A program made the translations under genes and the position numbers. 64,000 nucleotides of DNA from a virus: positions 29,533-93,532 of the IMG/VR virus record IMGVR_UViG_3300044712_000340. One strand, given 5' to 3'. The notes beneath the pieces are model-generated. The model had not been told where the DNA came from. It did no database searches and worked only from the letters and a program-made list of their open reading frames with translations. Of the stretch, positions 3,225 through 31,300 are shown piece after piece (within the stretch, counting starts at the first letter, position 1; each line of letters begins with the position of its first letter).

Positions 3225-4301
3225 ATGAGTTACTATGAAATAGCCAAAGAACAAAGAGATAGAGGTAAGTTAGGATTAAATAAAGGTATACCAATACTTC
3301 TTCCTAAGTTTAGAAGGTATATACCTAATATACAAAAAGGTAAGTTCTATTTGATAGCAATGGATTCTGGGACAGGTAAAACAAAGTTGACAAATTATCT
3401 ATTTATGTATACACCTTTCTTTCAATGGGTAAAAGCTAAAGGTAATTTTGATATTGATATTAGATACTACACAGCAGAGATGCCTATAGAAGAAATAATA
3501 GCAGAATTTCATGCTTATTGGGTGTTTCTTAATAGTCAAAAACTAACAGACATGGATCATATCTACTCTTTTGGTGAGAACAAGCTAGATAAAGAGATTG
3601 ATGATATGTTAGAATCTAATGAATGTAAAGATATTACTAAGGAATTTGAAAAGAAAGTAAAAATTATAAATGAATCCTTTGGTAGAAAGTATATTTACAA
3701 ACAACTAATAGCTAGTGCTGAAAGAAATGGTACAATATCCTGGGAAACCAATAATGACTCACATTTTATAAAATCCTACAAAGAACACAATCCTAATATG
3801 TATAATATCAATATAGTAGATAACTTTCAAAGACTGGTTAGTTTACCAGGTGAAAGTTCTAAACAAACTATTGATGAGTTATCAAGACAGATGGATTGGG
3901 GAAGACAGAAGTTTAACCAAATATGGGTTGGATTACAACAAATCAATAGAAACACTAAGAATCTTGATAGGTATAAATTAGGCCAGTATTTTCCTGGCCC
4001 AGAGTCTTTAAAAGATACAGAAAACCCTTTTCATGATTGTCAAGTGTGTATAGTTGGTATTAGTCCTAAAGCTTTAAACCTTAAAGAGTATGATGGGTAT
4101 AAAGTAGCTCATGACAAGGAAAGTAAAGGATTAATGGATAGACTTAGACCTATTAGAATATTGAAAAATAGAGGAGGTATATCTAATAAAACAGGATATT
4201 TAGGATTTCTAGGAGAATGTGCCCATTTCTTTGAACTACCAGAAGCAGATAAAATATCTGTTAAATTTTATGATGATTTTTATAATAATTATGGAGAGTA
4301 A
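3225..4301 (+). CDS. DnaB-like replicative helicase (SF4/RecA-fold ATPase)
   Basis: A 358-aa RecA-fold ATPase. After a short N-terminus the protein has a Walker A segment, DSGTGKT, at residues 47-53. Hydrophobic strands follow, including NINIVDNFQRLV (Walker B-like) and WVGLQQINR, where the GLQQ part resembles the glutamine-containing H3 motif of DnaB family members. This is the helicase domain only; no N-terminal primase-interaction domain of full-length DnaB (about 450-470 aa) is visible. It should form a ring that unwinds DNA at the fork, together with the Toprim primase encoded at 6320. A DnaB-family helicase is part of the common crassvirus replication set. Its stop overlaps the ATG of the next gene (TAATG). 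Confidence 0.75.
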   Translation: MSYYEIAKEQRDRGKLGLNKGIPILLPKFRRYIPNIQKGKFYLIAMDSGTGKTKLTNYLFMYTPFFQWVKAKGNFDIDIRYYTAEMPIEEIIAEFHAYWVFLNSQKLTDMDHIYSFGENKLDKEIDDMLESNECKDITKEFEKKVKIINESFGRKYIYKQLIASAERNGTISWETNNDSHFIKSYKEHNPNMYNINIVDNFQRLVSLPGESSKQTIDELSRQMDWGRQKFNQIWVGLQQINRNTKNLDRYKLGQYFPGPESLKDTENPFHDCQVCIVGISPKALNLKEYDGYKVAHDKESKGLMDRLRPIRILKNRGGISNKTGYLGFLGECAHFFELPEADKISVKFYDDFYNNYGE

Positions 4302-4456
4302 TGTTACACCAAGAGAAAATATTAAAAGAAATTTTAGTTGATTCATATCGTACATGTGATAAATGCAATAAAACTATACAAGAATGTAGTGAAGAACTAA
4401 TAAAGCTACTTGAAGAAAATGAGTACAATGTACAGCATAAAACATGGGATATTTAA
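4301..4456 (+). CDS. Small CxxC protein (51 aa)
   Basis: The ATG overlaps the helicase stop. The 51-aa product starts MLHQEKILKE and has Cys19-x-x-Cys22 followed by Cys29, then an acidic helix. Three visible cysteines may make an incomplete or shared metal site. It is the first of two consecutive tiny cysteine proteins between the helicase and ATPase genes. Function unknown. Confidence 0.55.
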   Translation: MLHQEKILKEILVDSYRTCDKCNKTIQECSEELIKLLEENEYNVQHKTWDI

Positions 4457-4465
4457 CTAGTAATT

Positions 4466-4639
4466 ATGATAGTAGAAGTAACATATCAATCAAGTGATTT
4501 GTATAGAGGTAAATGCTCAAATTGTGGTGAATGGACTACTACTCTTGTTAAAGGAGAAGGTAGGTGTATTGACTGCATTGAAGATGAGAGATTCTTTGAT
4601 GAAACTATGAAAATAAAACAAAATGAAATTAGAGATTGA
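4466..4639 (+). CDS. Small zinc-ribbon protein (57 aa)
   Basis: A 57-aa frame beginning MIVEVTYQSSDLYRGKCSNC. Cys17/Cys20 and Cys34/Cys37 form two CxxC knuckles about 13 residues apart, the classical spacing of a zinc ribbon, followed by an acidic helix. Such proteins usually bind nucleic acid or RNA polymerase. Being too short for most gene callers, it is easily missed. It ends 2 bases before the next ATG. Confidence 0.65.
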   Translation: MIVEVTYQSSDLYRGKCSNCGEWTTTLVKGEGRCIDCIEDERFFDETMKIKQNEIRD

Positions 4640-4641
4640 GT

Positions 4642-4827
4642 ATGGAAGAAGACAATGATGTTACAGAAAATACTGTTTTACCTAAATTAATACTAGAATC
4701 TAAAGGTATGAAATTGAATGGTAAACAGTATGAGAAGCTTATTACTTTTCTTGAAAAGTTCAGAGAAGATTTAAGCTATACTTCAGAATTTATAATAACA
4801 GGTTTTTATATTAATTATACAGAGTAA
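4642..4827 (+). CDS. Small acidic hypothetical protein (61 aa)
   Basis: I choose the ATG at 4642; a TTG at 4636 would add two residues but overlaps the previous stop. The 61-aa protein begins MEEDNDVTENTVLPKLIL and is helical and acidic. Its TAA overlaps the ATG of the ATPase gene (TAATG). No known domain. Confidence 0.65.
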   Translation: MEEDNDVTENTVLPKLILESKGMKLNGKQYEKLITFLEKFREDLSYTSEFIITGFYINYTE

Positions 4828-5531
4828 TGGCAGATATTATATTAAATATTGGAAAATCAGGTAGTGGTAAAACTTCAGGTCTAAGAAATTTACCAGCAGA
4901 AAAAACATTTATGATTAGACCAAACAGTAAATCTTTACCTTTTCCTGGTGGAGATAAGAATTTTGTAGAAGGTAAAAATTTGTTGATTACAGATGCTATG
5001 TCTACTGTAAAATCTACTTTGATTCAAGCTAGTAAAGCAGCTAATAATCCTTATAAGTACTACATAATTGAAGATTTAAATCATTTCTTTAATGCAAGAA
5101 CTACAAGTGATGCTTTTATAGCTCAAAATTCAGGGGGTGCAGCTTTCAGTAAATGGAATCAATTTGCAGCAGATATTATACAATCATTTATTGTAGTAGC
5201 TAAAGCTTTACCAGCAGATAGTTATTTGATTATCTTAGCTCATACAGAGGAAAAAGATGATGGTACTATTGGAATGCAAACATCAGGTAAATTGTTAGAA
5301 AGTAATCTTTATATTCCTGGATATGTAACTTATGTATTACATAGCATGATTACAGGGGATGCTAAAGATCCTAATTATGTGTATTTAACTAATGCGGATG
5401 GATTACATTTAGCTAAATCACCGGCAGGTAGTTTAGATAAAACTATGCCTAATGATATGTACAAAGTTGTATTAGCTGTAGACGCTTATAAAAAAGGTGA
5501 AAGTAAAGTTCAAGTTAAATGGAAAGAATAA
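4827..5531 (+). CDS. Sak4-like / AAA RecA-fold ATPase
   Basis: A 234-aa single-domain RecA-fold NTPase. Walker A GKSGSGKT lies at residues 9-16 right at the N-terminus, and Walker B is the hydrophobic strand ending YYIIEDLNHFF at about 79-89. A third strand, YLIILAHTEE, holds the sensor-like position. Length and layout match the Sak4-like single-strand annealing/recombination ATPases of phages, which act with an SSB. The next gene may be that partner. In crassviruses an ATPase of this kind is part of the replication block. A generic AAA_24 ATPase is the alternative name. Confidence 0.8.
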   Translation: MADIILNIGKSGSGKTSGLRNLPAEKTFMIRPNSKSLPFPGGDKNFVEGKNLLITDAMSTVKSTLIQASKAANNPYKYYIIEDLNHFFNARTTSDAFIAQNSGGAAFSKWNQFAADIIQSFIVVAKALPADSYLIILAHTEEKDDGTIGMQTSGKLLESNLYIPGYVTYVLHSMITGDAKDPNYVYLTNADGLHLAKSPAGSLDKTMPNDMYKVVLAVDAYKKGESKVQVKWKE

Positions 5532-5556
5532 TTATTAATATATTAAAAATCAAATT

Positions 5557-6312
5557 ATGGTAGGAATAGGTATCAATGAAAATGTAACAATTAGTAGTGA
5601 AACAAAAATTAATGATAAAGGTACATTAGAATTAATTTTAAAACAAGGCAGTTTGTCAGAAGAAGAAAAAGTGTTAGCTTCTTTAGGGGGTAACGATGTA
5701 GATGATAAATCTACTAAATTATTATTGTTTAATCCAAAACTAACTAATGATAGTACTGGTGTAGTAAAAGCTCCTGGTCAAATTATGAAAGAAATTCAAG
5801 ATTTTAGAAAACAACTGGCTGAATTTCTATTGTGTTATATGACTACAGAGGAAGTAGAATCTTTATTTGGCTCAAATATTCCAAAGACTTTATCTAAAAT
5901 TGAAGATGATAAAGCTTTTGTTGTAGCATTAAAGAAAGACACTACTGTAGATGCTATTACAACAGGGATGGTTACATTATTTGTTAAGTTATGTAAAGAG
6001 AATAATATATTTGATAGTAAGAAAACATTTAGATTGAAACTTTGGAGACAAAAGAAAGAGAAGAACTTTCCTAAACTTCCAGCAGGGTTTTCTAAATGGG
6101 TTGAGCCTATGGACGTACCTACACCCAAAGTTAAAATTGAAAAATTTGATGAACAGCCTTATGATAGTACAACTAAATTATGTAGAGTAAGTAAAGAACC
6201 TATGGAAGCGGATACAATTTCTCCAGAAGTTGTAGAAACTACCAACAGTGTATTTAATAATTTAGAAGAAGAATCTAAAGGGTTTGTATTTCCAGATTCA
6301 TTAAATTCATAA
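5557..6312 (+). CDS. Candidate single-stranded DNA-binding protein
   Basis: A 251-aa protein, 25 bases after the Sak4-like gene. The N-terminal half is beta-rich and the C-terminal 50 residues are acidic and disordered-looking, ending in a short hydrophobic/acidic tip (GFVFPDSLNS), an arrangement typical of phage SSBs whose acidic tails recruit partners. Neighbours on both sides are recombination and priming proteins, as expected. I see no sequence signature that proves an OB fold, so the call rests on layout and context. Confidence 0.5.
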   Translation: MVGIGINENVTISSETKINDKGTLELILKQGSLSEEEKVLASLGGNDVDDKSTKLLLFNPKLTNDSTGVVKAPGQIMKEIQDFRKQLAEFLLCYMTTEEVESLFGSNIPKTLSKIEDDKAFVVALKKDTTVDAITTGMVTLFVKLCKENNIFDSKKTFRLKLWRQKKEKNFPKLPAGFSKWVEPMDVPTPKVKIEKFDEQPYDSTTKLCRVSKEPMEADTISPEVVETTNSVFNNLEEESKGFVFPDSLNS

Positions 6313-6319
6313 AAAAAAT

Positions 6320-7354
6320 ATGTGTTTAGTAGATGAGTTAGTAAATGAAAGCTTGTCTATTACAAACATATTAAGGTATATTGATGATTACTCAATATAT
6401 TCTAAATATATAGGAGAAGAGTTAGAGTTAAATACTTGTTACTCTTCTCCCATTAGAGAAGGGGATGATATACCTTCCTTTTGTTTGTATAAGACAAATA
6501 ATAAAATTAAATTCAAGGATTTTGCAAGAGCAGAACTGAAAGGAGATATTTTTGATTTTGTAAAAATACTTATAGGAAAGGAAAAATTCAAAGAAATCCC
6601 CTTGTATAGAGTATTACAACAAATAGATTCTGATTTTCAATTAGGTCTATATACAGATGTAGGAGAGTTACCTAAACTACAAATAAGAAAAATAAGTGAT
6701 ATTAAAGTTAAAGATAAATACACTATTAATGTTACTTCCCACAAAATACCAACACAAGAATTTACAGATTATTGGGAAAATAAATATGATATAACAGAGG
6801 ATATATTAAAAATGTACAATTGTACCAATCCTCAAATATTACACTTTACCTCTAAATCAAATAAATTTCATGTATACCCTAAAAGTTTATGCATATCTTA
6901 TCAGATAGGAGGAAAATATAAAATTTATTTTCCATTCGAACATAAATCAAAAAAATTCAGAAATGACTTTCCTTCCAATTGGGTAGAAGGTTATATGCAA
7001 CTAAAAAGGAAGAATAATTTCTTTATTATAACTAAAGCCATGAAAGAAGTTATGTTTTTTAGAAAGCATTTTGATTGGGACACAGTAGCAGGTAAATCAG
7101 AAACTACGATGATACCAAATCATCTTATGATAAAACTCTTTAATGATTATGAAAAAGGTTATATATGGTTAGATAGGGATGAAGCAGGTAGACAATCTCA
7201 AAAAGATTATATTGCTAAATACCCTAATTTAATACCAATAGTATATCCTGATTATATAACACAAAAAGACGTAACTGATAGGTATGATTTTATGAAACAG
7301 GCTGGATTACAGCAAATTGCATTAAATGAAATAAAACAATTAATAAATAAATAA
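6320..7354 (+). CDS. DNA primase (DnaG-type, Toprim domain)
   Basis: A 344-aa primase. The N-terminal segment CYSSPIREGDDIPSF (about 40-54) resembles the conserved part that follows the zinc site in DnaG-type primases, but no full Cys zinc finger is present. The C-terminal half carries the Toprim domain: strand FFIITKAMKEVM at about 234-245, and the metal-binding DRDEAG at residues 285-290 (DxDxxG). In place of the usual EG the first Toprim motif reads TKAMKE, a variant I associate with crassvirus primases. It should make RNA primers for the DnaB-type helicase at 3225. The ATG is only 8 bases past the preceding stop. Confidence 0.8.
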   Translation: MCLVDELVNESLSITNILRYIDDYSIYSKYIGEELELNTCYSSPIREGDDIPSFCLYKTNNKIKFKDFARAELKGDIFDFVKILIGKEKFKEIPLYRVLQQIDSDFQLGLYTDVGELPKLQIRKISDIKVKDKYTINVTSHKIPTQEFTDYWENKYDITEDILKMYNCTNPQILHFTSKSNKFHVYPKSLCISYQIGGKYKIYFPFEHKSKKFRNDFPSNWVEGYMQLKRKNNFFIITKAMKEVMFFRKHFDWDTVAGKSETTMIPNHLMIKLFNDYEKGYIWLDRDEAGRQSQKDYIAKYPNLIPIVYPDYITQKDVTDRYDFMKQAGLQQIALNEIKQLINK

Positions 7355-7357
7355 AGT

Positions 7358-7966
7358 ATGAAAACAATTAAATTAAAGTTATTAACTCAAAATCAATTAC
7401 AACCAATTACAACAAATGCAAGTACTTTTGCAGAATTTAAAGCAGATGAACAAGTTAAAGCTTTAGGTATTGATTGGAGTAGTCATAAATTAATAGACAG
7501 GGCTACAAGGGCTACATTTGAATTGGACGAAGCTAAGATGCCAGAAGTAGACTCCATCATGTTTGTTACCCCTACTAAAACTAAATCAGGCATGTTATCT
7601 TATAAAGAAGCCAAAGAAGAAATTCAAAAACTTATATCTGAAGGTAAAATTGAGAAAATCAGTTGGGTAGGTAAATCCACTAAAGATTTGAATGATCTTT
7701 TACAAAAATCTTTTACAGAAAAAACTGGGAAATTAGTTACTGAAAAAGTAGCACAAGAATTAAACGAAAAGGATACTATTGTAGAAGAAATTCAAGAGTT
7801 ACTTACTAAAGTATCTAACAAAGTAAATGAATTATCTAAATTATCAGGTAATGATACTTCTGTTCTTGCTAAAGAACTTAAAGAGTTTAAAGAAAACTTA
7901 GCAGATTTTGTCACTAATGATGATCTAACTAAGGAGTTAAAAGATATTCAAAGCAGACTTAAATAA
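7358..7966 (+). CDS. Candidate ubiquitin-like (beta-grasp) protein with helical C-terminal extension
   Basis: A 202-aa protein in two parts. Residues 1-78 look like a small beta-grasp domain: a first strand TIKLKLL, a hairpin, a helix around STFAEFKADE, a strand KLIDRATRATFEL, and a last strand SIMFVTPTKTKSG. This resembles the prokaryotic Ub-like family found in PRTRC cassettes, whose end is also Thr/Lys/Gly-rich. Residues 79-202 are helical and coiled-coil, with no Gly-Gly end. A hairpin terminator follows, then E2-like, JAB and E1-like genes, which is why I propose a Ub-like role. On sequence alone the fold is plausible, not proven; an unrelated coiled-coil protein is the alternative. Confidence 0.5.
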   Translation: MKTIKLKLLTQNQLQPITTNASTFAEFKADEQVKALGIDWSSHKLIDRATRATFELDEAKMPEVDSIMFVTPTKTKSGMLSYKEAKEEIQKLISEGKIEKISWVGKSTKDLNDLLQKSFTEKTGKLVTEKVAQELNEKDTIVEEIQELLTKVSNKVNELSKLSGNDTSVLAKELKEFKENLADFVTNDDLTKELKDIQSRLK

Positions 7967-7970
7967 TAGT

Positions 7971-7992
7971 AAAGAGCCGAAAGGCTCTTTTT
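7971..7992 (+). terminator. Intrinsic terminator after the Ub-like gene
   Basis: A perfect 8-bp stem (AAAGAGCC / GGCTCTTT) closed by a GAAA tetraloop and running into T residues, placed 5 bases after the TAA of the Ub-like gene. It should end or attenuate the upstream transcript, so the E2-like gene downstream gets less message. Confidence 0.85.
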
Positions 7993-8011
7993 CATTTTAA
8001 ATAGTTATAAA

Positions 8012-9211
8012 ATGGTGATACCAGAAGAATTATTAAAAATGTCAGAAAAAGAGCTTAAAGAGGCTCTACCTGATAATATATTTAAAGCAACCTACATACA
8101 ACATCACTCAGAAATATATAAAATACTACATAAATTAAATAAAATTTTAACTGTTTATTCTTACACTGATAAAGTTATCACTACAATATCTAATCAATTA
8201 CACGAGGATTACTATGAGCCTTTTACAATAAGTAGCTTTAAAATTGCAGTAGAAAGTAAGAGAGAAAAATATTTAAAAACTTTAGATGTAGATAAGTTCA
8301 TTAATTGGATAGAAAGTGTAGTAAAATCTTATATAGACGAAGATAAATATGATATACAAAAAATAAATGAAAGTAGAGTAGAGTTAATACTATACTATCC
8401 TGAAATATCTATTACTAATAGTGTAGAATTTAAGCATACTTTAAGAGATGTATATTTAAAGTATATATTTATTAAATCAAAAAATCTATGGGGATTTAAT
8501 TCTATATCTATGTGTAGAAATACTTATACTGAAAAAGAATGGTTAGATTATTATATGCATTCTCATATCGCTGTGTCTTACTTAAATTCATATTCTTCTA
8601 GTTTTTGTATGGGCAGTAATACTCCTACAAGTAACTTGTTAACTCAGTTTCAAAAAAATTTATTAAAATTTAGAGAATTTATACTATTATTTGAAGCTTA
8701 TTTAAGTTGGGAAAGCATAGAAGGTAAACCTTATAGGTATATAGAAAATGTATTGAAACCTATAGAAGCTAATTATGATTTTATAGGTTTAGAAGTTATA
8801 CCTGATTACATTACTGTAGTATATACTTTAACTAAAAGAGTTTTAAGTATTTTACAAGATATACAATTTGACTATATTCCTCTTGTATTTAGTAGAAATT
8901 ACACTATTATATTAAAACAATCTACTGTAGATGAAATAGATGAACTACTTACTAAAGAATACCCTGAGTATTGTTATACTGTTTTAGATGACAATACAGT
9001 AAAATTAAAAGAAAGAGTTAGATTAACTGTAAATGGTAAACATACTGATATTTATTTTAAAGGTGAGAATAAATTAATAACTATAATCCCTGAAAAAGAT
9101 ACAGTTAAAGAAGATTTACCTATAAAAATACATAGAAGTTTATTAAATTCAGTAACAAAAGAGATTAAAGAGCAATTCGAACAATTTATAATTAATAAAA
9201 TATTAGGATGA
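8012..9211 (+). CDS. E2-like protein (Prok-E2_D / PRTRC protein B type)
   Basis: A 399-aa protein with a central E2-like core. Strands at about 123-152 (VELILYYPEISI ... VYLKYIFIK) lead into TYTEKEWLDYYMHSHIA and then SSFCMGSN, with Cys199 and Gly201. In prokaryotic E2 family D (PRTRC B) the active-site cysteine lies in a similar aromatic/aliphatic-Cys-x-Gly context after a His- or Asn-rich loop; His183 or His185 precede it here. The expected role is to carry a Ub-like protein as a thioester between the E1-like enzyme (10214) and a target. A long C-terminal part (about 220-399) has no recognised domain. The TGA overlaps the JAB gene start (ATGA). Recognition comes from the motif plus its neighbours. 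Confidence 0.6.
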   Translation: MVIPEELLKMSEKELKEALPDNIFKATYIQHHSEIYKILHKLNKILTVYSYTDKVITTISNQLHEDYYEPFTISSFKIAVESKREKYLKTLDVDKFINWIESVVKSYIDEDKYDIQKINESRVELILYYPEISITNSVEFKHTLRDVYLKYIFIKSKNLWGFNSISMCRNTYTEKEWLDYYMHSHIAVSYLNSYSSSFCMGSNTPTSNLLTQFQKNLLKFREFILLFEAYLSWESIEGKPYRYIENVLKPIEANYDFIGLEVIPDYITVVYTLTKRVLSILQDIQFDYIPLVFSRNYTIILKQSTVDEIDELLTKEYPEYCYTVLDDNTVKLKERVRLTVNGKHTDIYFKGENKLITIIPEKDTVKEDLPIKIHRSLLNSVTKEIKEQFEQFIINKILG

Positions 9212-10227
9212 AAGAAGAAAATATAGGAGTGATTGGTACACTTAAAATAAGTAAAAGATTACAAAAGATAATAGATTATCTTCATTATAAAATAGGATCT
9301 GTAGAGTGGTCAGGAGTTTTATACTATAAATTAACTAAAGGTAATTTAGAGGATTTAGAAGATTTAGAATTTGAGGCTACTTTTATGTATCCTATGAATA
9401 TAGGATCTTCAACATATACTGAGTTTGATTACAATGGAGAACTAGTATCTGCTTATGATATATTTGAGGAAGGACTTGAGCAATCTACATCTCTCATACA
9501 TACACATCATTCTATGGGAGCATTTCATTCTGGTACAGATTTAAAAGAACTTACAGATAATGCAGATAAATATAATTATTATCTATCATTAGTAGTAAAT
9601 TTCTCACATACTTATTGTGCTAAATTAGCTATTCCTTCTACTGAAATTGTAAATTATACCTCATATATTAAAAATCAAGAAGGTAAATTGGTTAATTTTC
9701 ATGGAGAAAGAGAAGAGAAGATACTCCTTATAGGTGATTTAAATATTGTATTTGAAGAAGAAGTAACTAATGAATCTTGGCTAGATGAGAGAATAAAAAC
9801 ACTACAAGAAAAGTCTAAAGAACAAAAAATTAGATTTAAAGATGCTAATGTTTTTGATATAGGTCTACCTAACTTTGGTTTTGATAGATTTAAAGAAAAT
9901 CTAAAAAGTTCTATAAGTGCTACTACAGAAGTAACTACAGATAAATTTCTAGCTTCTTTACTTTCTTTAAATGAAAAGATTACAGATAGTTTTGAAGCTA
10001 TTCTTAAATTGCATTTAGATGCTACAGAAGAAGAATTAGATATACTTGAAGAGGCATTAGAGTCTAATTACGAAATTATACATGAGAATTTGTATGGTAT
10101 GGATGCTGATATAAGAAGTGACTCTATAAATGCTTTACATGAGTTGAATAAATATCTCTCTAAGTATGGAAAGTATAAAATATTTGATGTTTTAGATTTA
10201 ATACTATCTAGCTATGTCGCAATTTAA
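9208..10227 (+). CDS. JAB/JAMM metalloprotease (deubiquitinase-like, PRTRC protein A type)
   Basis: A 339-aa protein with an N-terminal JAB/MPN domain. All zinc and catalytic positions of the JAMM motif are present: Glu33 in VEWSG, His98-x-His100, seven residues, Ser108 and Asp111 (HTH ... SGTD). Enzymes of this family cleave isopeptide or peptide bonds after Ub-like proteins, removing them from targets or maturing their C-termini. The C-terminal half (about 180-339) is helical and acidic and unrelated to known JAB proteins as far as I can tell. It overlaps the E2-like gene by 4 bases and the E1-like gene by 14, so the three are translationally coupled. Confidence 0.85.
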   Translation: MKEENIGVIGTLKISKRLQKIIDYLHYKIGSVEWSGVLYYKLTKGNLEDLEDLEFEATFMYPMNIGSSTYTEFDYNGELVSAYDIFEEGLEQSTSLIHTHHSMGAFHSGTDLKELTDNADKYNYYLSLVVNFSHTYCAKLAIPSTEIVNYTSYIKNQEGKLVNFHGEREEKILLIGDLNIVFEEEVTNESWLDERIKTLQEKSKEQKIRFKDANVFDIGLPNFGFDRFKENLKSSISATTEVTTDKFLASLLSLNEKITDSFEAILKLHLDATEEELDILEEALESNYEIIHENLYGMDADIRSDSINALHELNKYLSKYGKYKIFDVLDLILSSYVAI

Positions 10228-10873
10228 TGATAGATTTAAAGACGCTCCTTGGTACAATCAAAGTTGTAATGAAGAAATATTAGTTGTAGGAGCAGGAGGT
10301 ATAGGCTCTAATTTTGTTTATTGCTTGGGTAAATCTACTTTAATGAGAATATTTTTAATGGATTCAGATAAAGTAGAATATCACAATGTAGGTACACAGT
10401 TTTTCACAAAAGAAGATGTAGGGAGTAATAAAGTACGGGCAATGTATGAATACATGAGTAAATGTAATAGGTACATTGGTACGATACAAAGAAGGTATGA
10501 TAGCTCATTTTCTCCAATTATGGTAGCTGCTGTAGATAACATGAAAACTAGAAAAGAGATATTCGATGCATGGAGGCAAAAAGAAAATAGAGAGCTATTA
10601 CTTGATGGTAGATTGCGTGCAAATTATTATGAAATTTATGCTGTTATTTCAGGTAAGGAAGATGAATATGAAAAAACATTATTCTTAGATTCAGAAGTAG
10701 ACTCAGGGCCTTGTACATTTAAGCAAACAGCTTATTTTGGTATGTTGATAGGAGCTAGAATGACACAAATAATAGTTAATTACTTAACTAATAAGTATTC
10801 AGAAGAACCTATTTGTAATGTACCATTTAAAGTCAGTGAATTTGGTGAACCTTTTAGTATAGAAATATTATGA
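10214..10873 (+). CDS. ThiF/E1-like adenylating enzyme
   Basis: A 219-aa E1-like protein. The nucleotide-binding loop is VVGAGGIGS (residues 24-32), followed by the acidic strand end MDSD (49-52), then NVGTQFF (58-64), DVGSNKVRAM (68-77) with the conserved Lys73, and AAVDNMKTR (105-113). Cys167 in SGPCTF is at the place where E1-like enzymes often have their reactive cysteine. Such enzymes adenylate the C-terminus of a Ub-like protein. It is shorter than eukaryotic E1s but normal for ThiF-type proteins. One oddity is Thr61 where most E1s have Arg in the N-x-x-R-Q motif. The gene belongs to the JAB/E2 operon. Confidence 0.85.
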   Translation: MSQFNDRFKDAPWYNQSCNEEILVVGAGGIGSNFVYCLGKSTLMRIFLMDSDKVEYHNVGTQFFTKEDVGSNKVRAMYEYMSKCNRYIGTIQRRYDSSFSPIMVAAVDNMKTRKEIFDAWRQKENRELLLDGRLRANYYEIYAVISGKEDEYEKTLFLDSEVDSGPCTFKQTAYFGMLIGARMTQIIVNYLTNKYSEEPICNVPFKVSEFGEPFSIEIL

Positions 10874-11370
10874 TTTTAAAAAGAAATGATAAGATTTTAC
10901 CATTGATTTTTACTTTGCCTGAGTATGAGAATTCTAAGTATATAGACCTAGTGTTTCCAACTTATTGTTCTACTGTGTATAAAGAATCAGCATATAATTT
11001 TGTTACTGATAATAATCATGGGTATGTACATAGAACAAGGTATAATGAGTACTATAAGACTTTCTATTTAGGAATAATAGATAAAAAAGAAGAAAGTATA
11101 ATTTCAATGTTAGTAAAGTACAATAATGAAAATTATTTATTATTATGTAAAGATTTTGCAGAAAAAAACACAAGTGCTACAAGAAAAATAAAGAAAAGCG
11201 CAGTAGAAACATATAACATAGATGTAAAAAAGAAATTAATACTAGCTGAAGAAAGCGAATTATATGAATATTATTTAAAACTTATAAGTCCTACATTTGA
11301 AGATTATAAACAAGAGAATAAAGTAAAATTAGCTAAAGAATTTATAGAATGGAAGAAAAACAACGATTAG
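10870..11370 (+). CDS. Hypothetical protein after the E1-like gene (166 aa)
   Basis: A 166-aa Lys/Tyr-rich protein starting MILKRNDKILPLIF, joined to the E1-like gene by an ATGA overlap and overlapping the exonuclease gene by 22 bases. I do not recognise it. Its first residues (RNDKIL) recur at the start of the protein at 12156, the other side of the exonuclease gene. Coupling to the E1-like gene makes it a possible partner or target of the conjugation cassette, but that is context only. Confidence 0.75.
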   Translation: MILKRNDKILPLIFTLPEYENSKYIDLVFPTYCSTVYKESAYNFVTDNNHGYVHRTRYNEYYKTFYLGIIDKKEESIISMLVKYNNENYLLLCKDFAEKNTSATRKIKKSAVETYNIDVKKKLILAEESELYEYYLKLISPTFEDYKQENKVKLAKEFIEWKKNND

Positions 11371-12152
11371 CTTTAATAGATTTAGATACTTTAATTTATA
11401 TTGTGGCTTATAATCAACACAAGAATGGTAATAGAGACAATTCTGCACTAGTAAAACTACATGTAAAGGAATTTATATCTACCATTCTTGTAAGGTGTAG
11501 AGCTAACTTAGTTTCTATGGTTTATCAAGACAAAGGACACAGTAACTTTAGAAAGTATTTTTATCCTGATTATAAAGCTAATAGACCAGAAGCTCCTGAA
11601 TTTATAGTATTATGGAAAGATACTATAATAGAGATTTTCTCAGAAATAGGGGCTGTAGGTGTCAAAGTAATAGAATCAGATGATGTATTAAATATAGGGT
11701 ACAATAGATTTAAAAATGAATATGATTTAATAATAGTTTCAGGGGATAAAGATTTAAATCAAATACCAGGTGAACATTACAATCCTAGAGAAAACAAAAG
11801 TTATGTTGTTAGTAACAAGGAGGCATTGTATAATCTTAGTTTACAGTTACTTATGGGGGATTCTACAGATAATGTGAAAGCTATCCCTAAAATGGGAACT
11901 AAAATATCCTCTAAACTTTTAAATGAAGTATTAGGAAATACTGATTTAACTTTTTCTTTTATAGGTATTTGTTATGATCAGTATAGAAAAGCTTTTGGAG
12001 ATATTTGGTATTCTGAGTATTTAAAAACTAAGTTTTTAGTGACAATGTTACCTGAAATAGATTATAATTCTTATCCATTTAATCAAGAAGTATCTGAATT
12101 ATTTAATATAATACCTTGTTCTAATTTAATAGTAACTAGTGTATTTATGTAA
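11349..12152 (+). CDS. 5'-3' exonuclease / flap endonuclease (FEN, PIN-like)
   Basis: A 267-aa FEN-family nuclease like T5 D15 and the T4 RNase H/exonuclease group. Acidic metal ligands are all visible: Asp11/Asp13 (LIDLDTL), ESDD at 109-112, SGDKD at 131-135, and GDSTDN at 170-175. A YKANRP motif lies at 75-80, and a helix-hairpin-helix-like KMGTK follows at 181-185. It should remove RNA primers and flaps during lagging-strand synthesis. The ATG lies inside the end of the preceding gene. A FEN nuclease is a usual member of phage replication sets with a separate primase and helicase. Confidence 0.88.
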   Translation: MEEKQRLALIDLDTLIYIVAYNQHKNGNRDNSALVKLHVKEFISTILVRCRANLVSMVYQDKGHSNFRKYFYPDYKANRPEAPEFIVLWKDTIIEIFSEIGAVGVKVIESDDVLNIGYNRFKNEYDLIIVSGDKDLNQIPGEHYNPRENKSYVVSNKEALYNLSLQLLMGDSTDNVKAIPKMGTKISSKLLNEVLGNTDLTFSFIGICYDQYRKAFGDIWYSEYLKTKFLVTMLPEIDYNSYPFNQEVSELFNIIPCSNLIVTSVFM

Positions 12153-12155
12153 TTT

Positions 12156-12641
12156 ATGACGAGAAATGATAAAATATTAAAAGTTTATGTGTTGCCTTTA
12201 TATGGAATAGAAACTTCTGATAAAGATGTGGAAAAGATCTACCTTAATAAAGATGGAAGTTATCTATTCTTACAATTAAAAGAGTTAAGCCCTAAGTTAG
12301 AATCTAACCTACTCTATTCGGGAGTATTTGAATATTGTAATAAAGAATTTTATATGTTTAAAACTTCTATAGCTTATGCCAAAGATATAATAAAGATAAT
12401 TAAAGGAGAGTATAGTAAGTTAAGTAAAAATGCTAAAAATACTATAATTCAATTGAGTGGTTTACCTTATATGAAGAAACAAGGTAAAGAAACAATAACT
12501 CACTCTTTTTTATTAGCTTTGTTAAAACACAAAAAGTATAAGAAAATACTAGAAGATAGACTAGGTGTAGAATTACAAGAAGAGAATGAACTTATGGATA
12601 AACTAACAAAAGAAACGTTTATTGATAATTTAATAACTTAA
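12156..12641 (+). CDS. Hypothetical protein (161 aa)
   Basis: A 161-aa basic protein starting MTRNDKILKVYVLPLYG. The RNDKIL start matches the gene at 10870, raising the possibility of distant paralogues or a shared N-terminal peptide. The C-terminal half is helical (TKETFIDNLIT end). No function can be assigned. It starts 3 bases after the exonuclease stop. Confidence 0.75.
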   Translation: MTRNDKILKVYVLPLYGIETSDKDVEKIYLNKDGSYLFLQLKELSPKLESNLLYSGVFEYCNKEFYMFKTSIAYAKDIIKIIKGEYSKLSKNAKNTIIQLSGLPYMKKQGKETITHSFLLALLKHKKYKKILEDRLGVELQEENELMDKLTKETFIDNLIT

Positions 12642-12644
12642 AAT

Positions 12645-12887
12645 ATGGGAAAATATAATATAAGAGATGAAGTATACTTCATGGAATGTGATGTAGCTAG
12701 AAAAGGTAAGATAACTGGAATAATTACATACGAGGGGCATATTAAAACCATGAGTTTTGATGATAAAGTACCTGAAGGACAGATTGTAATTAATTATGTA
12801 ATAGATTGTTATACTACAAGAAGAGAAGAAGCTTTGTATAATTCTGTTTTAGAGTTACAATCTAGTGTTTTTAAGAATTTAAAATAA
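12645..12887 (+). CDS. Small hypothetical protein, SH3-like barrel (80 aa)
   Basis: An 80-aa protein with alternating strands (DEVYFMEC, RKGKITGII, IVINYVIDC) that looks like a small SH3/KOW-type barrel, then a short helix. Similar barrels occur repeatedly in the 633-aa protein at 14618. Three bases separate it from the preceding gene and a terminator follows, so it closes this transcription unit. Confidence 0.7.
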   Translation: MGKYNIRDEVYFMECDVARKGKITGIITYEGHIKTMSFDDKVPEGQIVINYVIDCYTTRREEALYNSVLELQSSVFKNLK

Positions 12888-12890
12888 CAT

Positions 12891-12914
12891 AGAAGTCCTG
12901 AAAAGGACTTCTTT
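12891..12914 (+). terminator. Intrinsic terminator
   Basis: Stem AGAAGTCC / GGACTTCT (8 bp, perfect) with a TGAAAA loop and short T-run, 3 bases after the TAA of the 80-aa gene and 12 bases before the next ATG. Confidence 0.8.
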
Positions 12915-12925
12915 AATGTAAATAT

Positions 12926-13429
12926 ATGAGTAATAGAAATAAACAAGTAGGCTCAAATTTAGAACGCAAGTTGTTCCAGCTTATTAATAGAAGAACAATA
13001 GCATCACAACAAGGGGTAGAATTAACAGAAAAGGAATTATCTAATAAAGATTTAGAGGCTATACCAGAAAGTAATTTTGTATTATTTCCTAAATTAGGGT
13101 CTACAAGAAAGTTGAGTAGAAGTATGGATGCTAAAAAGAAAGATATTACTCCTGAGAACATGGATAGATTACATGACTTTCCTTATATATTACAAGCTAA
13201 AAGTTTAGCTGTAAGTGCTGCTCCTTATGCCAAATTATTAGCAGAAGTTAAAGAAAATAATAAATGGGGAATACCTGTAGTTATTCATGAGCAAACTAAA
13301 AAACAAGGAAGTAGATTTGTAAAGCAAGATGATTTTGCTATAATGTATCGTAAAGATTTTATTGATATGATATTTAAAATAGCTGAGTTAGAATTTGAGT
13401 TAAAACAAAAAGAACATTTTGAAAAATGA
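12926..13429 (+). CDS. PD-(D/E)XK nuclease, likely Holliday-junction resolvase
   Basis: A 167-aa protein with the layout of small archaeal/phage-type resolvases: an N-terminal basic segment and Glu13 (GSNLERK), a Ser/Arg-rich loop with Asp68 (SRSMDAKKKDI), then the strand YILQAKS with the Q-x-K form of the (D/E)xK motif at residues 90-92. A conserved WGIPVVIHEQ strand follows. It should cut branched DNA before packaging or in repair. The Q in place of E is tolerated in this superfamily. It starts a new unit after the terminator and overlaps the methylase gene by 4 bases. Confidence 0.7.
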   Translation: MSNRNKQVGSNLERKLFQLINRRTIASQQGVELTEKELSNKDLEAIPESNFVLFPKLGSTRKLSRSMDAKKKDITPENMDRLHDFPYILQAKSLAVSAAPYAKLLAEVKENNKWGIPVVIHEQTKKQGSRFVKQDDFAIMYRKDFIDMIFKIAELEFELKQKEHFEK

Positions 13430-13947
13430 GTAGTACAGGTAGAGGGGGAGTTAAATTAGACCAAGATAAATATTATACACCTATTTGGTGTGTAGAAAAA
13501 CTTATATCTAAGATACATATTACTGAAATAAAATCTTTCTTAGAACCTTGTAAAGGAGATGGTAGAATACTTACTTATATACCCACAGATATTACTAGAG
13601 ATTGGTGTGAATTAAGTGATGATAAAGACTATTTAACTTTTATTCCTTCAATGGAGTATGATTTGATTATTACCAATCCTCCTTTTAGTTTATCCATAGA
13701 GTTTTTAACTAAATCTTTAAAGGAGGCTAAAACAGTTTGTTATTTACAAAGATTGAATTGGTTAGGTAGTAAAACTAGAAAAGATTTTTGGAATACTAAT
13801 ACTCCAGACAAGTTATTTATATTGTCACAAAGACCTCAGTTTATGAAAGAAATGGGATTAAAGTCTGGAAGTGATAGTACAGAATATGCTTGGTTTATAT
13901 GGGATAAATTAGGAATTGTAAATGGTAAACATATAGAAATATTATAA
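13426..13947 (+). CDS. DNA adenine methyltransferase-like protein
   Basis: A 173-aa class I methyltransferase. Motif I is LEPCKGDGR (39-47), the catalytic motif IV is NPPF (84-87), and the N-terminal DKYYTP (14-19) is a frequent signature of phage N6-adenine methylases. A separate target-recognition domain is absent; it is shorter than Dam (about 270 aa). No restriction gene is next to it, so it is an orphan, probably guarding phage DNA against host restriction. Specificity cannot be read from sequence. Confidence 0.78.
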   Translation: MSSTGRGGVKLDQDKYYTPIWCVEKLISKIHITEIKSFLEPCKGDGRILTYIPTDITRDWCELSDDKDYLTFIPSMEYDLIITNPPFSLSIEFLTKSLKEAKTVCYLQRLNWLGSKTRKDFWNTNTPDKLFILSQRPQFMKEMGLKSGSDSTEYAWFIWDKLGIVNGKHIEIL

Positions 13948-13949
13948 CA

Positions 13950-14621
13950 ATGAATAAATTAAGAATAACAACAGGTAATGGATGGTATAAAAAATCAATA
14001 GGGCAGGTATTTCCTGTTTTAGATTTTAACAGAACAGACGGTTATTTAGTAGATATTGATGGAGAAGAGGGTTTAATGTTTTATGTTAAACCTTCTGATT
14101 GTGAAGTAGTAGAAGAATCTAATTTACCTATAAGTGGTAAAAAAGTTAAATTTGATGATACACAAGAACTTCTTATTAAGTTAATACCAAATAGTGAAGG
14201 TAAATGCGTGGATTTTCCTGTTAAACTAGAGCAAGGAGATTGGATTGATTTAAGGGCTTGCGTTAATGCTGAAAAGTATATAAAATATCAAACAAGTGTT
14301 CCGTTTACTGTGTCTCTAGGTATATCTTGTAAATTACCTGAAGGTTATGAGGCCATTATAGCACCTAGAAGCTCCCTATTTAAAAAACAAGGGTTAACTT
14401 TAGTTAATTCCATTGGAATAATTGATTCTAGTTACTGTGGAAATGATGATATATGGATGGCAGTATTTATGCCACATAGAGATGGTTTATTATCTTTTAA
14501 TGAAAGAATTTGCCAGTTTAGGATACAGAAGAATCAACCTACTTTAAAACTTACTCAAGTAGATAACTTAGAAGGAATTAATAGAGGAGGATTTGGTGAA
14601 GGAACTAAAAATGAGAAATGA
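13950..14621 (+). CDS. dut: dUTPase with N-terminal extension
   Basis: A 223-aa protein whose residues from about 65 form a trimeric-type dUTP diphosphatase. All five motifs are visible: D97-A103 (DWIDLRA), PRSSL at 139-143, GIIDSSYCGND at 156-166, ERICQF at 185-190, and a Gly-rich RGGFGEGTK at 212-220 that closes the active site. It hydrolyses dUTP to dUMP, keeping uracil out of phage DNA. The first 60 residues are an extra small barrel-like domain (GWYKKSIGQVFPV...), not part of normal dUTPases (about 150 aa). Its TGA overlaps the ATG of the next gene. Confidence 0.9.
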   Translation: MNKLRITTGNGWYKKSIGQVFPVLDFNRTDGYLVDIDGEEGLMFYVKPSDCEVVEESNLPISGKKVKFDDTQELLIKLIPNSEGKCVDFPVKLEQGDWIDLRACVNAEKYIKYQTSVPFTVSLGISCKLPEGYEAIIAPRSSLFKKQGLTLVNSIGIIDSSYCGNDDIWMAVFMPHRDGLLSFNERICQFRIQKNQPTLKLTQVDNLEGINRGGFGEGTKNEK

Positions 14622-28311: not shown

Positions 28312-31300
28312 TTCATCTCCAAATCTTTTCATTCTTTCAACAGAATTTAGTAAAGGTAATTGTGATTCTATAAAAGGAGACCATTTACTTTCATCTTTAT
28401 GGTAACCTGATTGGTATATCATGTCTTCATCTTCACCAAACATTTCTGTAATACTTAAACTATATAATTTCCACATATCATCTAATAGTGATGTCATTGA
28501 TGTAGGGTTTTTAATTAAGTCTGACCAAGCTTTAGGATTGTAGTAGAATTGAATATCTTTATTTATTTTTTGCATGATGTTCATGATACTTAGTTGTGCT
28601 ATATTAGCATTTTTACATTTCTTATCATCGCCACACATTCCTTTTTTCATTAAAGCATATAATCCAAAACTAAGAACCAAAGTACTTAATTCAGCTAAAT
28701 TTACTTTCATATTTGCTTTATCTACTTCTGATAGTTCTCCTGTTTTCCATGCTTTATATATAGCACTAGGATTTAACTTGTATTTCTTTGTTAATTCTAC
28801 CCAAGTTCTATATCTACCTTTAGTAGTAATGTTTCTATTATAATCCATCTTCTCTACTCCAAATCTAGAATGAAAAGCCTCAAAGAACCATAATCTAAAC
28901 ATAGATCCCATTCTACCTGCAAGTGTGTCTTTTACCATTAAAGGATTTGTATAATCTCCATGTATTTCCTGGATTTGAGATTTTACTCTAGTTACCATAG
29001 CTGTAATAGCATCTGCCCCTCTTTTATTTTCAAATACCCATTCATCAGATAAAGTACCATTTTCATTAATGGCTTCCCACATTGATTTAGTTTCTCCTTT
29101 ATCATTAGTAACTTTTGCATGTAACATCATAGCTATCATTACAGTACCCTGATTAGATTTCTCTGTAGCTGTTTGAATAGCATAAGGTTTAATAGACTTT
29201 GTTAGTTTGAAAAACCAGTTCTTACCTTCATCAAATTTATTTGATTGTTTAAATTCATATAGAATATCTCCTAAAATATTATAGTTTTCTGTTACTTTAT
29301 TGAATTTTTTACTTTGAGTATATAACATAGATTCTGCTTGTAACCATTCTTTCATATTATATAATCTGCCTTCAGCAGCTTTATACATATTGGTTATCTT
29401 GCCTATAGCTAAGTTAGCTATACCAGCAGGTATATTCCATCCCATACCTTTAAGTCTCATGAAAGACATTAAACCTTTAACTAAACTATTTGTTGTAACT
29501 CTAGTACCTAAAGAATCTAATTCCCTATTTAAAATATCTTGTTCTTCTTTAGTTATATTAGGATTCTCTAGTAGTTGTTTTATCTCTTTTTGTCTTTGTT
29601 TATCTTGTTTTGTAGTTACTGTAAATAAATTTTTAGAAGTATCCCCTTTAGGTTGTTTATAGTATGCTTCCTTTAAAAAGTAATCTACCATTTCTTTTAA
29701 GTTATCTATATATCCTTGACCTACTGTATTACCTTTTGAGTCTATTATTTCATCCCCAGTATTTACTGTAGAATTAGGTAAATAAGTCATAGCTACATTA
29801 ACCATATCTTCTATCATTACAGAATGTTTATATGTAGTAGCGGCTAAGTTTAATAAATTTAGAGATTTAAATAAAGTACCTGAATCTTTATCTGTATTCA
29901 TTTTATTAAATATCTCATTAGATGCATCAATATATAATTGTTTTCTCTCAGTATCATCTAACTCTCTATCTAGTTTTAATTGTGTCTCTAATTTCTTTTT
30001 ATTGTATAGTTCTTTTATCATTCCATCTATTGTAGATGTTCCTAGTCTGATAGTTCTTATTGGTTTTCCTGTTATAGGATCTATTTTTTCTTTTAAAGGT
30101 TTTCCACCCTCTAATTCTCCTAATATTTCATTAACTAATTCTTTAGTAAGAAATTCAGGTACACCGACTTTATTTAATTTAGCTAGCATATCTGCTTCTA
30201 TAAAAGTTAAAGAAGTAGACTTTAAATCGCTATGTCCATATAATTTTTGAGCGGTATTTGTTATTTCTTTAGCCTTTTTATAGAACTCATAAGCTACAGG
30301 AATTGCTTCTATTTGTTCAAAATTAGTATCATAATATCCTAAATCTACTCCAGATTTAGTAAATCTTTTTGGAACTATAACTAGGAAAGTGTCTTTACCT
30401 ACAACATCATATATAGATCCACCTTTAGCATTATTAATAGCTTTTATTCTATAAATAGGGGAATTATTTCTTTCCCATACTTCTAAATCTGCTTTTTGTT
30501 CATTAGTTAGTTCTTCTTCTCCATACTCTACAGATATATGATCTTCTCTAACCTTTAGATAATTCTCATAGGCTGTTTTAGCTTTTTCTATATATTCTTT
30601 AGTCCCTATTACACCTAAATTAGTTTCTATTTCTTTTATATATTTAGGATCATTAAGTTTAGTAGGGTCTATAGTGAATTGATTATTTTTTCTAAAAGAA
30701 ACATTTTGATTATCATGTTTGTCACTAAAATACTTTTGAGAGAATTTATGTACTAATCTACCTGTAGGTGTCTTATGTTTAATATCATCTATTTCTACAT
30801 CAGTAGTCTGGAAGAATAGACTCTCATTAAATCCAGAAGATTTCATAGATTTATATAATTCTGCTAAATCTCTTGATTTAATCTTTACTTCTCTATATGC
30901 AGAATCATTAGCTTCATTAACTATTTTAGCTACATACTGTGCTAAGGCTTGTCCTACTCTATTTAAAGATAGTGTATTTTTAAACCATGCACCTAACTTA
31001 TGAGGTAAGGATATAATTTGTTCAAATGTAAGTCCTGTATTGAATGTAGAGTTAACTCCATTAGATAGTATTACTTTACCTTTGTTTAATAGTTTAGGCA
31101 TCAATAATGCAGCTCTTCTACTTATATCTGAAAATTTATCCTGTATAATTTCAGAATCTCTCATTTCTTCATCAAGAAACATATGAGTTTCCTCACTAAA
31201 ATCACCAGACTTAATCCACATCTTTAATTTAGTTACAGAATCATTAAACTCTGCTGGGCTTAACTTAGGTTTATTTAGTATTTTTTCTATTTCAATTAAG

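Follow-up and report, generated by a model that had tools for sequence, protein, structure and literature searches.

The window analysed here, a stretch of 64,000 nucleotides (positions 29,533 to 93,532 of the 93,532-base virus record IMGVR_UViG_3300044712_000340), carries at 7358-10873 four consecutive plus-strand genes for a ubiquitin-like modifier (UBL) precursor, an E2-like protein, a JAMM/JAB metalloprotease and a ThiF/E1-like adenylating enzyme. This cassette is best read, at a probability of roughly 0.78, as a phage-encoded pathway of UBL conjugation and deconjugation that would act in early infection. A preliminary description, made from the letters alone, had proposed the same four genes in a crass-type phage. 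The open reading frames (ORFs) lie where it placed them, the E2/JAB and JAB/E1 overlaps are 4 and 14 bases by the ORF coordinates, and the residues it named are all present: Cys199 of the E2-like protein (within SSFCMGSN); Glu33, His98-Thr-His100, Ser108 and Asp111 of the JAMM protease; and GAGGIGS (residues 26-32) and MDSD (Asp50/Asp52) of the E1. The phage is indeed crass-type, its TerL and major capsid protein being 41 and 48% identical to their crAss001 counterparts. Three features went unmentioned in that description: the Gly78 motif of the UBL with the tail behind it, the terminator at 7971-7998, and Cys167 of the E1. The parts of the cassette are as follows.

7358-7966, plus strand: ORF of the UBL precursor, 202 residues
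7358..7591, plus strand: UBL modifier domain, residues 1-78 ending in KSG78 (AlphaFold beta-grasp, Foldseek, invariant G78)
7589-7591: Gly78 codon of the UBL
7592..7966, plus strand: helical, variable tail behind Gly78 of the UBL precursor, residues 79-202 (identity 27% in the tail versus 47% in the core; gene splits after G78)
7971..7998, plus strand: intrinsic terminator AAAGAGCC-GAAA-GGCTCTTT followed by a T tract, in the UBL/E2 gap
8012..9211, plus strand: E2-like protein, 399 residues (invariant H185/C199/G201, AlphaFold topology, jumbo-phage motif)
8564-8566 and 8606-8608: codons of His185 and of the predicted catalytic Cys199 of the E2-like protein
9208..10227, plus strand: JAMM/JAB metalloprotease, 339 residues, with E33, H98, H100, S108 and D111 (ligand conservation, HHalign to PRTRC-A)
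10214..10873, plus strand: ThiF/E1-like adenylating enzyme, 219 residues, single domain (Pfam ThiF, HHalign to PRTRC ThiF)
10712-10714: codon of the predicted catalytic Cys167 of the E1

Conservation of the cassette in crass-type phages

Viral contigs were scanned with an E1 alignment, which gave 182 related places; the best 80 were read, and six more loci (the window, an excerpt of its record and four annotated phages) brought the total to 86. The order UBL-E2-JAB-E1, on one strand, is constant in 84/86. The remaining two have E2-JAB-E1: L075, which lies at a contig end, and L001, which is the excerpt just named. Conservation of the string in related phages, which the preliminary description had left as a check, was borne out, as all intact loci examined carry the UBL and E2 neighbours. 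Carriers include crAss001 (gp79-gp76), DAC15, cr128_1, Flavobacterium phage FpV4 and many environmental phages, in which the genes are annotated as "thiamine biosynthesis protein", "metalloprotease" or hypothetical. The E1s form a single clade (support 98/98), separate from PRTRC ThiF in the tree.

Divergence among the loci is strong, the E2-like proteins of other loci being mostly 15-30% identical to that of the window. Among 74 distinct phage proteins, C199 and H185 of the E2 were each found in 72; the JAMM ligands E33, H98, S108 and D111 in 73 and H100 in 74; and D52 and K73 of the E1 in 74 and C167 in 73. Because the named active-site residues are near-invariant across these proteins, they are not there by chance. 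The surroundings are conserved too: the neighbourhood survey placed a primase upstream in 81/86 loci, with Sak4, DnaB, UDG and nucleases nearby.

The layout of the genes sets the modifier apart from its enzymes. Among 72 distinct loci, the E2 gene overlaps that of JAB in 66, and JAB and E1 overlap or lie no more than 3 bases apart in 69, while the UBL-E2 gap has a median of 56 bases. One fixed rule found a terminator within this gap in 51/70 distinct loci, where mononucleotide shuffles would lead one to expect 0.2; the control regions (upstream of UBL, inside E2, E2/JAB, JAB/E1 and after E1) had terminators in 0-1 of about 70 loci each. The stems differ in sequence between loci, though the loci themselves are related. 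Sigma-70 promoters showed no excess (52 versus 57). The natural reading of this arrangement is that the modifier would be made in excess over the three coupled enzymes, since a terminator after the UBL gene would limit read-through into E2-JAMM-E1.

The putative modifier precursor and its predicted enzymes

The preliminary assignment of the 7358 product as a Ub-like protein called for a beta-grasp, and such a fold was predicted. An AlphaFold model from 67 sequences placed it at residues 1-70 (pLDDT 96-98), followed by a weaker linker at about 71-80 and a helical tail. Foldseek matched ubiquitin, NEDD8 and ISG15 with a probability of about 1.0; against single ubiquitin domains, TM-scores were about 0.65-0.74 with modest E-values (0.001-0.01). 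By sequence, no Ub-like family was among the Pfam matches listed for the UBL, nor was any Ub or E2 family among those of the UBL and E2 in the window, and comparison of the UBL with PDB sequences matched no ubiquitin. Gly78, at which the beta-grasp domain ends, is the sole invariant column of the 67 UBL sequences and is kept in 73/73 of a larger set, in the context KSG in 48/73; mean column identity is 47% in the core and 27% in the tail. As the tail follows directly, exposing the Gly would need cleavage.

Gene structure marks the same position. In L043 and L052 the UBL gene ends one codon past the Gly (KSGI* and KSGK*) and a short ORF follows immediately; in cr106_1 (L073:3722-4925) an HNH endonuclease gene is inserted right behind KSG, so that the UBL ends in KSGKF* and the tail ORF comes afterwards. 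These splits may represent only two or three events, because L043 and L052 share one E1 subclade. Locus L055 was considered as a fourth split and rejected, as its short UBL results from a frameshift after an A7 run: the UBL frame (L055:5700-5948) ends after KSGNEKKH at this run and the tail resumes in another frame, which could reflect a frameshift, a sequencing error or programmed slippage.

Cleavage after a C-terminal Gly has parallels. PRTRC-C, the plasmid UBL, has a C-terminus of exactly KG in 8/9 examples, and BilA is reportedly cut by BilC, which exposes its Gly (PMC11354881). The phage precursor is probably cut by JAMM right after Gly78, because the sole invariant column lies there and the gene breaks 1-2 codons later in three phages. 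In L076 (L076:4328-5263) the tail holds the C-terminal domain of ribosomal protein L7/L12 (Pfam 3.1e-10), an arrangement reminiscent of ubiquitin-ribosomal protein fusions. The UBL might then, like ubiquitin in such fusions, mainly carry or protect the tail, with the released tail as the product and conjugation secondary. This domain and the retention of the tail as an ORF of its own in the split gene of cr106_1 speak for such precursor splitting; it seems very unlikely nonetheless, given that no part of the precursor is less conserved than the tail (27% versus 47%) and that E1 and E2 would be superfluous.

For the 8012 product, an E2-type topology was predicted around Cys199, as its preliminary assignment as an E2-like carrier required. 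The AlphaFold model (pLDDT 90.5) has a helix at 93-105, four strands at 113-173, a loop with H185 and C199, and two helices at 205-231, which is the order of elements in UBC folds (alpha, four-strand meander, Cys loop, alpha). H185, C199 and G201 form an invariant set in the alignment of phage E2s, which also shows two near-invariant motifs, Y-x-[HFQ]-S-H...C-x-G and, further on, ES..G.P. The model's hits in a viral Foldseek library were crass homologues and three unnamed proteins, and a search of PDB sequences with an E2 HMM matched a cellulose-binding domain alone. On its His/Cys motif, modelled UBC-like topology and operon context, this protein is likely an E2.

The two remaining enzymes were compared by HHalign with profiles built from PRTRC loci. 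JAMM, whose JAB match in Pfam is sub-threshold (0.066), aligned with the PRTRC-A profile at 96%; the alignment pairs all of its ligands (E33, HxH, S and D), which are present in the expected order. The E1 matched Pfam ThiF (1.2e-15) and aligned with the PRTRC ThiF profile at 99.7%, C167 being aligned with the PRTRC Cys; it retains GxGGxGS, DxD, K and D, together with a Cys in the catalytic position. It also matches PADLOC E1-E2 and BilD models, as well as ThiF/MoeB models. The last would suit a sulfur carrier, in which the UBL would be ThiS/MoaD-like and Gly78 would bear a thiocarboxylate for thiolation of nucleotides, tRNA or a cofactor; bacterial sulfur pathways do combine a ThiF-type E1, JAMM and small beta-grasp proteins (PMC1779556). 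Such a role is highly improbable here, because the cassette always includes an E2-like protein with invariant His and Cys. The survey of conserved neighbours revealed no recognisable sulfurtransferase, and E2-containing operons are kept separate from sulfur pathways by PMC1779556.

Relation to known ubiquitin-like systems

The claim that the phage genes are the same set as PRTRC held for gene order and for the homology of E1 and JAMM; several defining PRTRC features are missing. PRTRC loci, operon type 6d in Iyer 2006 with proteins C, F, B, A and ThiF, share the order UBL-E2-JAB-E1 and an E2 with C-x-G; their UBL ends in Gly, as does the phage UBL domain, behind which a tail follows and whose profile match to PRTRC-C is not significant. 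In contrast to PRTRC, UBL and E2 are adjacent in the phages, and the phage loci are without ParB, protein E or F, their neighbours being primase, UDG, Sak4, DnaB and nucleases. The PRTRC JAB has an N-terminal alpha+beta domain (PMC1779556) which the phage JAMM lacks, its core starting at residue 13, whereas about 80 residues precede the core in PRTRC-A. PRTRC E2s have a His downstream of the Cys and none upstream (PMC1779556), whereas phage E2s have the upstream H185 in 72/74 and no His in their conserved downstream motif (ES..G.P). The phage E2 is also longer (399 versus about 240 residues), the phage UBL has a long tail and the phage E1 lacks the Arg of NIGRQ. The E1 scores 44 bits against NCBIfam TIGR03736 (cut-off 144.75) and belongs to a separate clade despite the 99.7% profile homology. 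Bacteroidales mobile elements and chromosomes themselves carry PRTRC UBL, E2 and ThiF genes (L093 and L100-L117, from Bacteroides, Phocaeicola and relatives); these loci yielded no PRTRC-A-like JAB.

Bil resembles the phage cassette in having separate UBL, E2, JAMM and E1 genes, its order A-B-C-D being that of 84/86 phage loci. It differs in that BilA has two beta-grasp domains, BilB carries a CEHH motif and BilD is a pseudodimer of inactive and active adenylation domains with a Cys domain (PMC11354881), whereas the phage UBL has one beta-grasp followed by helices and the phage E1 is a single ThiF domain of 219 residues. Bil is moreover an anti-phage defence, and the crass cassette is carried by the phage. 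CBASS Cap2/Cap3 (operon types 6a/6b) shares the E1, E2 and JAB chemistry; its E2 and E1 form a fusion protein, and it is the C-terminus of cGAS that becomes conjugated, whereas the phages have separate genes and a dedicated UBL. From these comparisons the crass cassette is predicted to work like PRTRC and Bil, yet belongs to neither, nor to CBASS.

The nearest relatives of the crass E1 clade were found in jumbo phages (PhiXhv-12, PhiXhv-16 and Ep032), whose E1 is its sister (96/85). In PhiXhv-12 (L162:3739-7615) a small protein ending in KASGG and an 892-residue protein with an E2-like active site precede the E1; unlike the crass E2, the E2 part sits inside a larger protein with Cys-rich ends, and no JAB was detected in the 14.5 kb examined. 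HHalign aligned the 892-residue protein with the phage H..C..G stretch (E 0.003), and its motif is IHPHMAVPSSQESHGSLCLGSF (HPH..GSLCLGS). Classical ubiquitin E2s have the active-site motif HPN....G.ICL. By this resemblance, the PhiXhv-12 protein likely bridges the phage E2 to ubiquitin E2s. A viral scan with the jumbo-phage E1 returned no relatives. In a 595-kb phage, LR756511 (L163:4648-6573), a JAB (Pfam 8.2e-08) and a ThiF/E1 (6.8e-32) occur with a 214-residue protein between them.

Proposed role and the primase-UDG slot

In the conjugation pathway proposed here, the primase-linked operon would make UBL precursor in excess, with the terminator limiting read-through to E2-JAMM-E1. JAMM would cut the precursor after Gly78 and free the tail; by family chemistry and residue conservation, ThiF/E1 would then use ATP to adenylate Gly78 and take it as a thioester on Cys167. 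The E2-like protein would accept the UBL on Cys199, with His185 assisting, and pass it to target lysines, from which JAMM could also remove it. The targets may, with less confidence, be DNA replication proteins of phage or host, which are favoured because the cassette adjoins the primase in nearly every phage.

The preliminary description had offered three possible roles: modifying replication proteins of host or phage, protecting virions, or undoing a host Ub-like defence. The main rival to a replication role is counter-defence, in which the cassette would tag or untag parts of host immunity (e.g., CBASS or Bil conjugates) or occupy host Ub-like machinery. In its favour, E1/E2/JAB sets of a related kind serve as anti-phage defences (PMC10097602, PMC11354881), PRTRC E2/E1/UBL sets occur in host Bacteroides, and the E1 matches PADLOC E1-E2 and BilD models. 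We nevertheless regard this as unlikely: JAMM alone would suffice for stripping host tags, and, unlike variable anti-defence genes, the cassette occupies a fixed slot behind the primase in essentially all members of the clade and in many habitats. Its constant position and its presence in nearly all of the clade would suit a role linked to replication better than one as a variable counter-defence gene.

Several points weigh against a conjugation pathway as such. Neither a target nor an E3 was identified. Foldseek of the whole 399-residue E2 model against PDB gave no significant E2 (the best, Ube2W, ranked 49 with E = 0.43 and TMt 0.45), and none of 67 E2 members matched a Pfam E2 family. Phage UBL and E2 had no significant HHalign match to PRTRC-C and PRTRC-B; for PRTRC-B versus the phage E2, E was 0.007, not significant, and the aligned stretch was the catalytic C-x-G. 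The E1 is without the Arg of the NxxRQ motif, having Gly in 59, Thr in 9 and Ser in 5 (n = 74), and the UBL tail could function within the intact protein. The failure of Foldseek and Pfam to return a significant E2 would fit another Cys/His enzyme in its place, with the cassette stopping at an E1 thioester or adenylate. This appears quite unlikely against the modelled topology, the HxH..CxG motif, the jumbo-phage bridge HPH..GSLCLGS and the operon context.

None of the four genes could be detected in seven phages: p-crAssphage and cr11_1 of the Intestiviridae; cr1_1, cr52_1 and ProJPt-Bp1 of the Suoliviridae; and cr108_1 and Cellulophaga phi14:2, both Steigviridae. In the records tested, the cassette was all-or-none. 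Other Steigviridae carry the UBL cassette in the slot between primase and UDG, which in cr108_1 and phi14:2 holds the following.

L169:1279-8335: amidoligase cassette of cr108_1, between primase and UDG
L170:1526-7170: amidoligase cassette of Cellulophaga phi14:2, between primase and UDG

Both sets comprise an ATP-grasp-like protein, a COOH-NH2 ligase, a class-II glutamine amidotransferase (GATase_6) and Amidoligase_2, with peptidase C26 or gamma-glutamyl cyclotransferase in addition; in phi14:2 the ATP-grasp match is weak and Amidoligase_2 falls below the curated cut-off. PF14395 and PF13522 were sought in 33 records and were present in cr108_1 and phi14:2 only (0/26 UBL-cassette records and 0/5 others). 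Amidoligase/ATP-grasp sets have been predicted to modify proteins with peptides (Iyer 2009, cited by PMC4431377 and PMC7824862). The gene contents suggest a swap at one slot between two unrelated chemistries of amide-bond formation, two cases being too few for proof. Tentatively, crass phages might need covalent peptide tagging in the replication region, met either by a UBL pathway or by an ATP-grasp/amidoligase/amidotransferase pathway. If the swap is real, protein tagging would be a conserved viral function and not a borrowed defence module.

Work on complete Ub-like pathways in prokaryotes has so far dealt with anti-phage defences or plasmid cassettes; in the present case such a pathway would be a stable part of the genome in a large phage clade that includes cultured gut crassviruses and Flavobacterium phages. 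In the titles and abstracts of open-licence papers no relevant literature was found that links crAss-like phages with ThiF or ubiquitin, and the open-licence literature gave no match combining PRTRC, phage and ubiquitin. Ubiquitin, ThiF and JAB go unmentioned in the main text of a 2021 crass genomics paper, as does ubiquitin in the crAss001 isolation paper and structural atlas. With this cassette, phage-directed protein tagging becomes testable in existing phage-host pairs, conjugation being predicted to leave a Ser-Gly remnant on Lys (+144.05 Da, trypsin), and the cassette bears on the origin of ubiquitin signalling.

The window's replication genes around the cassette are listed below.

4827..5531, plus strand: Sak4-like ssDNA annealing ATPase (PHROG 3.3e-40; neighbour in 67/86 loci)
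6320..7354, plus strand: DNA primase, directly upstream of the cassette (PHROG DNA primase 1.4e-26; neighbour in 81/86 loci)
11349..12152, plus strand: 5'-3' exonuclease, downstream of the cassette (Pfam 1.7e-15)

The PHROG families matched by the window's E1 and JAB carry no assigned function, and Rfam gave zero matches across 4000-14000. An ORF at 10870-11370 overlaps the E1 end by 4 bases, occurs in 10/86 loci and belongs to no family; it is a possible accessory factor or target. Further downstream, at 13426-13947, an ORF bears a TNPPFSL motif and may encode an adenine-type DNA methyltransferase.

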